Source of the DNA: a virus
Virus record (IMG/VR): IMGVR_UViG_3300042465_003746
Location: 1-64,000 of that record
Direction: 5' to 3' (one strand)
Length of the DNA: 64,000 nt
A program made the position numbers and the translations under genes. Shown here in pieces: positions 34,383 to 35,347 of this stretch. Below the pieces are notes generated by a model. It worked only from the letters and a program-made list of their open reading frames with translations. It was not told the origin of the DNA and did not search any database. Numbering within the stretch: the first letter of the stretch is position 1; each line of letters starts with the position of its first letter.

Positions 34383-34405
34383 AATGTATAATTTTAGTTA
34401 ATAAA

Positions 34406-34450
34406 AAAGATAGTGGGATACTCCTCTCCCACCGTGAGCTTACCTATCTT
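34406..34450 (-). ncRNA. Hairpin element, copy A (AGGTAAGCTC plus GAGGAGTA loop)
   Basis: On the minus strand, AGGTAAGCTC is followed after 3 bases by a 6-bp stem GTGGGA/TCCCAC with the loop GAGGAGTA. An outer stem AAGATA/TATCTT (34445-34450 with 34407-34412) closes it, and TTTT follows at the 3' side, as in an intrinsic terminator. Copy B has the same conserved parts with a different stem sequence. Confidence 0.6.
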
Positions 34451-34460
34451 CTAACCATAA

Positions 34461-34502
34461 ACGAATGAATGAAATACTCCTCTTTCACAACGAGCTTACC
34501 TA
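34461..34502 (-). ncRNA. Hairpin element, copy B (same loop, covarying stem)
   Basis: On the minus strand, AGGTAAGCTC, then 3 bases, then a stem GTGAAA/TTTCAT enclosing the identical 8-base loop GAGGAGTA. Four of six pairs differ from copy A by sequence while pairing is kept (one as G-U), which points to selection for the RNA structure. No strong outer stem is seen. Confidence 0.55.
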
Positions 34503-34513
34503 ATGACGTATTT

Positions 34514-34534
34514 AAAAAATAACTAAAAGTTATT
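34514..34534 (-). terminator. Intrinsic terminator after the Met-type tRNA-like gene
   Basis: On the minus strand a perfect 7-bp stem AATAACT/AGTTATT with a TTT loop is followed by TTTTAAA. It begins 3 bases after the 3' end of the tRNA-like gene. Confidence 0.75.
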
Positions 34535-34536
34535 CG

Positions 34537-34653
34537 TGGTTAGGGTGCGACTCGAACGCACGACCTATTGGCAAGACTAAATGTATATCCTCAGGCAATT
34601 ACCCCTTACTTTTTACCGCTTACCAATCGAGCCACCAACTGCTCTACCTAACC
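34537..34653 (-). tRNA. tRNA-like gene, elongator Met type, with anticodon loop replaced by a 51-base insert
   Basis: The acceptor stem GGTTAGG/CCTAACC, the D arm GAGC-AGTTGGTG-GCTC, the variable loop AGGTC and the T arm GTGCG-TTCGAGT-CGCAC are all intact and resemble elongator tRNA-Met; discriminator A, CCA not encoded. The anticodon stem ATTGG/CCAAT is also present, but it encloses 51 bases instead of 7. The stem is extended to 9 bp (ATTGGTAAG with CTTGCCAAT, one G-U). No choice of exon borders gives a 7-base loop with U33, so a simple spliced intron is not supported. It may be a tRNA mimic. Confidence 0.6.
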
Positions 34654-34727
34654 AAACACTAGTCTTTCCTAGTAGTCAACATGGATATTTTGTGTACAAT
34701 TCAGGACTCTCATGCTCTTCCTTAGTT

Positions 34728-34834
34728 GTAGTCGGACAGGATTCGAACCTGCACAGTAGTTCTCCGAGGTTGTATTTATAATCAGAACTACTTTAATTAT
34801 CACCCTAAGCGTCTACCATTCCGCCACCTGACTA
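34728..34834 (-). tRNA. tRNA-like gene, Leu type, with abnormal anticodon region
   Basis: The D arm GCGGAATGGTAGACGC is the class II Leu signature, and the T arm GCAGG-TTCGAAT-CCTGT is normal. The acceptor pairs TAGTC(A)GG with CCGACTA, leaving one bulged A. Between D and T arms lie 56 bases, about 24 more than usual: 16-18 mostly unpaired bases, then a 9-bp stem AGTAGTTCT/AGAACTACT with a 20-base loop. No normal 5-bp anticodon stem with 7-base loop can be drawn. Either a decayed or a deliberately altered tRNA. Confidence 0.55.
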
Positions 34835-34929
34835 AAAAAACACACTCTTAAGCATTCTACTCCCAGCTACGAGGAATTGTATCTTACTTAGCCCATCTCA
34901 CCGCTGTGTGGGTACTTAAGTTTATGTGT
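34834..34929 (-). ncRNA. Branched structured element ending in T7
   Basis: On the minus strand, ACACA and CTTAAG at the 5' side (34915-34929) pair with CTTAAG and TGTGT at the 3' side (34840-34852). Inside are ACTTA/TAAGT with CCCA/TGGG, and an ATTCCTC/GAG-GAAT arm. Seven T follow immediately and lead into the Leu-type tRNA-like gene. The structure is by eye and could also be part of one longer RNA. Confidence 0.45.
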
Positions 34930-35028
34930 CTTGAGGTTAAGAACTCCTCAGTGTTGTAAGAATCTATAGCATATCTTCATTACTTATGTTCGATTTCCTT
35001 TCTCAAGGGAACAACAACTCTTTTAATA

Positions 35029-35091
35029 ACATACCCTGTCAGCCCAAGCAGCTGAATATTAGACTTAGCATTAAAGGGTTGTCCTAATATC
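35029..35091 (-). ncRNA. Pseudoknot candidate
   Basis: On the minus strand GATATTAG (35084-35091) pairs with CTAATATT (35055-35062). In the loop between them ACAACCCT (35075-35082) can pair with AGGGTATGT (35029-35037) downstream, apart from small bulges, which makes an H-type pseudoknot. Confidence 0.4.
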
Positions 35092-35160
35092 CTTCCATAA
35101 ACAACTCCACTCTTGGTTGTGGATTCTAACTTTCTTTAGACTCTTGCTTACGTAGGGCCC

Positions 35161-35299
35161 TATAGTTTTTCAATATTAGCTATTTGTTTGCTTCAAGCAG
35201 GGTAATATTTTATACTGTGCCAAAACTATACATAAAGTTTACTTTTGGCTGGTTATAAATAGATAAAGTGCCTGATCCATGTACTACTGTGGGCACTTT
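35161..35299. ncRNA. Nested stems and terminator-like hairpin
   Basis: TATAGTTTT (35161-35169) pairs with AAAACTATA (35222-35230); inside, AATATTA pairs with TAATATT. Next to it, AAAGTGCC (35265-35272) pairs with GGCACTTT (35292-35299) around a 19-base loop, followed on the plus side by T-rich DNA. Strand of any transcript is not clear. Confidence 0.4.
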
Positions 35300-35347
35300 T
35301 AGTTTATTTAGTTACACTTCATGGTCATCTACTTACAATGTTTAAAT

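Follow-up and report, generated by a model that had tools for sequence, protein, structure and literature searches.

Introduction

YrlA RNAs mimic transfer RNA (tRNA) without an anticodon arm and occur in phages too; their ends emerge at the would-be anticodon position. The gammaherpesvirus TMERs are tRNA-microRNA RNAs, through which a virus makes small RNAs via a tRNA unit. When recombinant RNAs were inserted into the anticodon arm of an engineered tRNA scaffold, they were found to be processed and stable in Escherichia coli (PMC3753655). The tRNA islands of phages contain the non-coding RNAs GOLLD and ROOL (PMC12286853, PMC6582537), and a pseudo-tRNA has been noted within a GOLLD gene. Here, we report on two tRNA-like genes without an anticodon arm in positions 1 to 64,000 of the virus record IMGVR_UViG_3300042465_003746 from IMG/VR (this 64,000-nt stretch is called the window hereafter), and on a large and apparently undescribed family of phage RNAs on a tRNA shell. 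The reading we favour, with a probability of about 0.5, is that the two genes belong to a large phage RNA family built on a tRNA chassis, in which the insert is the working part and the shell is matured by host tRNA enzymes. No earlier description was found in the open-access literature searched, and the novelty is thus provisional.

Two tRNA-like genes in the window

The window lies within the 87.4-kb virus record of a crAss-like phage, whose terminase, portal and major head protein are all of the crAss-like type. In a block of minus-strand genes, about 950 non-coding bases (34400-35345) contain both tRNA-like genes. ARAGORN without introns reported no tRNA anywhere in the window, and Rfam at gathering score gave no match there; the Rfam tRNA model scored the Leu-type gene at 26.5 bits, slightly below the 29-bit cut-off. 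When introns were allowed, ARAGORN recovered both genes, at c[34536,34653] and c[34728,34834], and thereby placed both members of the originally predicted pair on the minus strand. Their features are as follows.

34728 to 34834, minus strand: Leu-type tRNA-like element with an AGTCAGG-type shell; U-1, A1 = 34833, A73 = 34729, C74 = 34728; 3' acceptor strand short by one base
34753 to 34808, minus strand: Leu-type insert, 56 nt; 9-bp hairpin AGTAGTTCT/AGAACTACT (34784-34792 with 34755-34763) adjoining the T arm; T48 retained
34536 to 34653, minus strand: Met-type (class I) tRNA-like element; acceptor GGTTAGG/CCTAACC, A73 C74
34562 to 34628, minus strand: Met-type insert region, 67 nt; base 26, 5-bp stem extendable to 9 bp (34619-34627 with 34567-34575), 51-nt loop, variable loop AGGTC (5 nt)

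Both genes have the acceptor, D and T arms and lack the anticodon arm. In the Met-type gene, the 7-bp acceptor pairs perfectly, the D arm is 4 bp long and contains GG, and the T arm is GTGCG-TTCGAGT-CGCAC; the gene's 51-nt loop, a length counted from the 5-bp stem, is closed by ATTGG/CCAAT, and 9 bp with one G-U pair are possible (ATTGGTAAG/CTTGCCAAT). The Leu-type gene has GCG/CGC, the D loop GAATGGTAGA and the T arm GCAGG-TTCGAAT-CCTGT, and the 3' strand of its acceptor reads CC-GACTAC where the family consensus is CCTGACTAC, so that one base is missing and A5 is unpaired. The original prediction had described near-perfect acceptors in both genes, which holds for the Met-type gene and fails for the Leu-type one; the intact D and T arms, the 51-base loop, the 9-bp extension with its G-U pair and the lack of a normal anticodon arm in the Leu-type gene were all confirmed.

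Phages whose head protein is 90-97% identical have elements of this kind in their non-coding regions. The relatives G013, G014 and G020 have AGTCAGG...CCTGACT shells whose inserts are unrelated, G003 and G015 have shells with another acceptor, G022 and G024 have class I shells, and the shells of G002 and G004 are variants. The original prediction had named normal tRNAs at this place in related phages as the observation that would speak against it. None of the relatives has one at the window's place; they carry further insert-bearing shells there instead, with other inserts or another shell. Two intron-free ARAGORN calls in elements of relatives, Leu(taa) and Pyl(cta), were not taken as normal tRNAs; in the shell scan described below the former has no canonical anticodon arm, and the latter (locus L134, 2946-3035) begins upstream of the evident shell. 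A neighbouring 166-aa gene was tried as a synteny anchor and rejected, its relatives being scattered and non-syntenic.

Family size and conservation of the shell

A tolerant shell scan of 367 loci, mostly from IMG/VR phages, yielded 361 elements with 310 distinct inserts in 219 insert families, 163 of them singletons. Tolerant scanning of 849 kb gave 408 shell matches, compared with a single match in shuffled copies of 60 of the loci, which is more than expected by chance. At least 120 IMG/VR stretches were matched by a gapped pattern that fixed part of the D and T arms, set N{45,75} between them and left acceptor positions 1-5 unspecified. Most elements have the shell AGTCAGG-TGGCGGAATGGTAGACGC-insert-ACAGGTTCGAATCCTGT-CCTGACT-A-C and sit among ordinary tRNAs in phage tRNA arrays, with as many as seven per fetched locus. 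The inserts are usually 40-120 nt long. Since they span 20-119 nt in loci retrieved via an unrelated RNA module, independently of the shell, this range is no artefact of the search pattern.

About 80% of the elements have the AGTCAGG acceptor, though the pattern had left positions 1-5 free. Among long-insert elements it was present in 121 of 147, whereas 156 different acceptors were counted among the 199 tRNAs of normal length in these loci. A73 occurs in 88% of elements and the D arm is of Leu type; position 48 is T in 87%, and C48 was found in all four elements with G15 (4/4). With the working tRNAs that lie in these phage arrays, the elements share the A15-U48 Levitt pair, A73, C74 and the leader bases. 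Deviating acceptors are compensated on the other strand (for example GGTGAGA/TCTCACC, GAAGTGG/CCACTTC, TCTCCGG/CCGGAGA and TGTGTGG/CCACACA). Because the scan itself demands most pairs, the near-100% pairing of the shell is not independent evidence; at the level of sequence, the compensated acceptor changes are.

A shell conserved so far beyond the needs of pairing, together with A73 and the Leu-type D arm, favours the strongest rival explanation, namely that activity resides in the shell. The element would then mimic a tRNA, lack the anticodon and keep a tRNA-binding host enzyme occupied (a synthetase for which the anticodon does not matter, e.g. leucyl-tRNA synthetase, a modification enzyme, EF-Tu or a defence enzyme that targets tRNA), while the insert would merely stabilise it and bar it from translation. 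However, the base pairs of the inserts are selected (see below), some inserts retain long conserved cores, several acceptors have been changed entirely, and a simple decoy needs no multiple copies with differing inserts in one phage. We regard this explanation as unlikely, though worth keeping in view. A narrower proposal of the original prediction, a decoy for anticodon nucleases, found no support, because the elements offer no anticodon loop that could be imitated and the inserts differ from phage to phage. Decoys for tRNA-modifying enzymes or for synthetases, also named in the original prediction, would exert their effect via the shell.

No decoding arm but tRNA processing signals

A canonical anticodon arm, taken as a 5-bp arm with at least 4 paired and a 7-nt loop with U33, was found in 235 of 247 ordinary phage tRNA shells but in 12 of 250 shells of the AGTCAGG type, and in 4 when 5 bp were demanded. 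Since the anticodon arm is absent, the elements cannot decode. The remaining parts of a decoding tRNA are in place: the acceptor, D and T arms with their tertiary-contact bases, and the 5' and 3' processing context of leader bases, discriminator and C74. Features outside the scan criteria gave, for elements versus normal tRNAs of the same loci, C74 in 99% versus 97%, U-1 in 82% versus 65% and A-2 in 80% versus 62%.

ARAGORN fits the elements only with an intron, and the closing helix of the Met-type gene is anticodon-stem-like, as would be expected of intron-bearing tRNA genes in which some splicing restores the anticodon loop. Nevertheless, the claim that no splice choice restores U33 stood: across the family, T occupies that position in only 22%, without enrichment, and removal of the insert would not give a canonical anticodon loop. 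In addition, most inserts have no helix at the position of the anticodon stem, the inserts fall far short of the length of group I introns and gave no match to an Rfam intron, and the tRNA ligase RtcB was found in none of the 26 records searched. Splicing is therefore a very improbable explanation.

Selection on the inserts and their exchange between shells

Among pairs of inserts from the same family, 83 of 87 lie in unrelated flanks (35% identity, the background level), yet the inserts are 84% identical. In the compensation test, the structure was predicted from one member only and the expectation was obtained by placing the same substitutions randomly. Compensatory double changes numbered 60 versus 16.8 ± 3.7 expected, and broken pairs 131 versus 208 ± 10, over 87 pairs that are not independent, two families having been enlarged by patterns that fix part of their sequence; the compensatory excess is large despite this. 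The high identity in unrelated flanks and the compensatory changes above expectation indicate that the inserts are selected RNA structures and not products of decay. The view that these genes differ from ordinary tRNAs and carry structured inserts was borne out. Because the fold z-scores of the window inserts were weak (-0.5 and -1.6), folding energy alone is no evidence.

In one insert family (n=11), the closing pair covaries three ways (UA:5, GC:4, CG:2) and the shell covaries too, while all slid controls fail. Another family (n=9) has a covarying stem and a pairing-consistent pseudoknot. Since linker-loop pairing was not enriched overall (median p 0.42), a pseudoknot is proposed for single families only. 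Pairing of the insert 3' ends with an internal stretch exceeds that of shuffles (28% at p <= 0.05). The same insert was found in shells of differing acceptor (for example L171 and L227, L166 and L137, and L302/L304 versus L156), and inserts also recur in phages unrelated to each other. The carriers are crAss-like phages and other phages, and some inserts are common to crAss-like phages and phages without that terminase.

The one-base acceptor deletion of the window's Leu-type gene, and the lack of close relatives of both window inserts, would fit decayed tRNA genes or assembly errors. Against this stand the recurrence of the shell and insert families in many independent metagenome contigs, the compensated acceptor changes, the retained C74 and leader bases and the compensatory insert changes. 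For the family as a whole, decay or assembly error is refuted, and we hold this explanation to be extremely improbable.

Carriers and shell variants

The sample consists of metagenome-derived contigs, in which clues to the host are indirect (one contig of a Chitinophagaceae metagenome-assembled genome (MAG), and crAss-like genes). In 84,980 bacterial and archaeal species the gapped pattern matched two contigs, both in MAGs, and no whole-element match was found in 50,697 isolated-phage records. A shell copied from a host tRNA-Leu was considered and rejected; the AGTCAGG shell occurs in 1 of 395 Bacteroidia genomes, there on a single 45-kb MAG contig.

Two further forms were observed. In L132/L133 (G002/G004) and L135 (G014), the D loop of the variant shells lacks GG (AAATATGAGA type) and the T loop is changed jointly from TTCGA to GGYAGYT, which suggests a different elbow contact. 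The tRNA-like family in L163, L165, L210, L223 and L236 has two hairpins that resemble a T arm, GGTCGGTTCGAGTCCGATGG and the normal T arm itself, plus a GGGTAGCTCCC hairpin.

Proposed role of the insert

The insert is probably the working part, since selection acts on its structure and inserts are exchanged between shells. As judged from the signals, the RNase P of the host, its 3' processing enzymes and its CCA-adding enzyme would mature the shell like a tRNA, and such maturation would give the RNA defined ends and protection from nucleases. Since such an RNA does not decode, the insert would be the active part and would work in trans within the infected cell. Rapid replacement of the inserts, their multiple copies and their sharing between phage groups liken them to a counter-defence or host-takeover repertoire, which is a guess about the target. 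More tentatively than for the family and its insert, we propose that Bacteroidota phages and other environmental phages possess an RNA arsenal on a common tRNA chassis, whose fast-changing structured inserts could block host defence or takeover targets or misdirect them, and could be exchanged as cassettes between unrelated phages.

Several results weigh against the chassis reading, along with the non-independence of the insert pairs and the two enlarged families. The window's Leu-type copy, one acceptor base short, may be less functional. Moreover, the exact 20-base patterns of the window inserts have no relative in IMG/VR, so that selection is established for the family and not for these two inserts. 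No target emerged either: the inserts match no Rfam family, and comparison with neighbouring phage DNA, which was rejected as an origin of the inserts, gave significant matches only within shells, the others being weak and at chance level. That the inserts are antisense RNAs to Bacteroidia genes or isolated phages, or copies of these, was rejected, since the sampled Bacteroidia genomes gave only the elements of the carrier MAG and chance-level matches, and isolated-phage sequence gave no match beyond chance; short antisense seeds would escape all these searches.

If the chassis reading is true, phages own an RNA counterpart of the small counter-defence protein repertoire. Since tRNA finders drop such genes or list them as oddities with introns, phage RNAs of a large class have apparently been overlooked. 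The family makes the role of unknown RNAs in phage tRNA islands testable insert by insert.

Neighbouring non-coding modules

Two further features lie upstream of the tRNA-like genes.

34932 to 35017, minus strand: GTTCCC module, GTTGTTCCCTTGAGAAAGGA - 39 nt variable - CAACACTGAGGAGTTCTTAACCTCA; a second scaffold with a variable insert
35084 to 35260, minus strand: conserved non-coding stretch; identity 85% to G004 and 68% to G002

In related phages, the GTTCCC module lies directly upstream of tRNA-like elements or tRNAs. Its general form is GTGTTGTTCCCTTGAGAAAGGA - 25-108 nt variable - CAACACAGAGGACTTCTCATCCTCA, frequently 3-5 nt upstream of the element or tRNA; the 3' hairpin covaries, and no Rfam match was obtained. 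The module occurs in at least 120 IMG/VR stretches (L149, L162, L178, L215, L227, L294, L344 and others). It is also found within a larger unnamed RNA (L315, L333, L343, L376, L381 and ~20 further loci) that has the conserved blocks AGGTTAAACATTGAATACCTTTGTAA ... CATAAAGATACT ... CAACACAAATGAGTTCTCAGCAAGT ... CTACGTGACCCTACTCTTAT ... AAGAGGGTGCTAA and is variable between them. The stretch at 35084-35260 has no open reading frame of 80 aa and no Rfam match.

These arrays, in which elements, conserved non-coding modules and tRNAs alternate, would suit processing or spacer units, through which RNase P and 3' tRNA cleavage free the neighbouring RNAs (the GTTCCC module and other non-coding RNAs) from long phage transcripts. 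The suggestion in the original prediction of processing signals for the RNAs between the genes gains from the second conserved RNA module immediately upstream of many elements, but leaves the selection on insert structure unexplained. The ordinary tRNAs of the same arrays would suffice for such processing, and the missing anticodon arm is not accounted for either, so we consider this explanation improbable.

On the other side of the two genes, at 34400-34510 (minus strand), the motif AGGTAAGCTC-...-GAGGAGTAT-... occurs twice, with a hairpin, and the second copy ends in TTTTTT and is terminator-like; similar sequence is found in G002, G004, G010 and G020. A short hairpin, CTAGGAAAGACTAG, is shared by the window (~34655-34680) and L134, 2946-3035 (G014), where it stands immediately before the tRNA-like gene at the Met-type's place.

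Comparison with known systems

Transfer-messenger RNA (tmRNA) shares with the elements the acceptor ends, the T arm and an insert that replaces the anticodon arm. Unlike tmRNA, the elements have inserts of 20-130 nt, no common tag region and an intact D arm, and their pair 3-70 is U-A where tRNA-Ala and tmRNA have G-U. The tmRNA covariance model gave no match in the window. The search was shown to work by a true phage-encoded tmRNA in L333 (2254-2658, 81 bits), which lies ~360 bases past a GTTCCC module.

Y RNA and YrlA are alike in being tRNA mimics that lack the anticodon arm. However, the ends of the elements are at the acceptor and not at the anticodon position. TROVE/Ro60-like genes were observed in two large carriers, L262 (G034) and L263 (G056), as partnership of YrlA-like RNAs with the Ro60 protein would require. 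The other 43 of the 45 carrier or relative records, the window's included, encode no TROVE protein, though a host protein could still serve, and no Rfam Y RNA family was matched; such a partnership is highly unlikely.

GOLLD and ROOL, like the elements, are non-coding RNAs located in phage tRNA arrays, but they are large separate RNAs, whereas the shells here are of tRNA size. In 16 carrier loci, tRNA and GOLLD were the only known Rfam families; GOLLD (RF02032) was matched in 8 of 44 records searched, not in the window's record, and neither GOLLD nor ROOL was matched in the window. TMERs resemble the elements in that a viral tRNA unit yields other small RNAs. They differ in that their hairpins come after the tRNA and not in the place of the anticodon arm, and in belonging to a eukaryotic virus.

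The engineered tRNA scaffold is like the elements in keeping the acceptor, T and D arms and in carrying a structured foreign RNA in place of the anticodon stem-loop (PMC3753655), and the family has just this combination of a structured insert and an intact tRNA shell. The scaffold relies on host tRNA processing for its ends and stability, whereas here only the processing signals are seen; it is a laboratory construct, and the elements would be its natural version, a phage gene family with hundreds of inserts. Phages thus seem to deliver other small RNAs on a tRNA chassis, and, if this is true, the tRNA fold would be nature's general carrier for other RNAs, as it is in RNA engineering.
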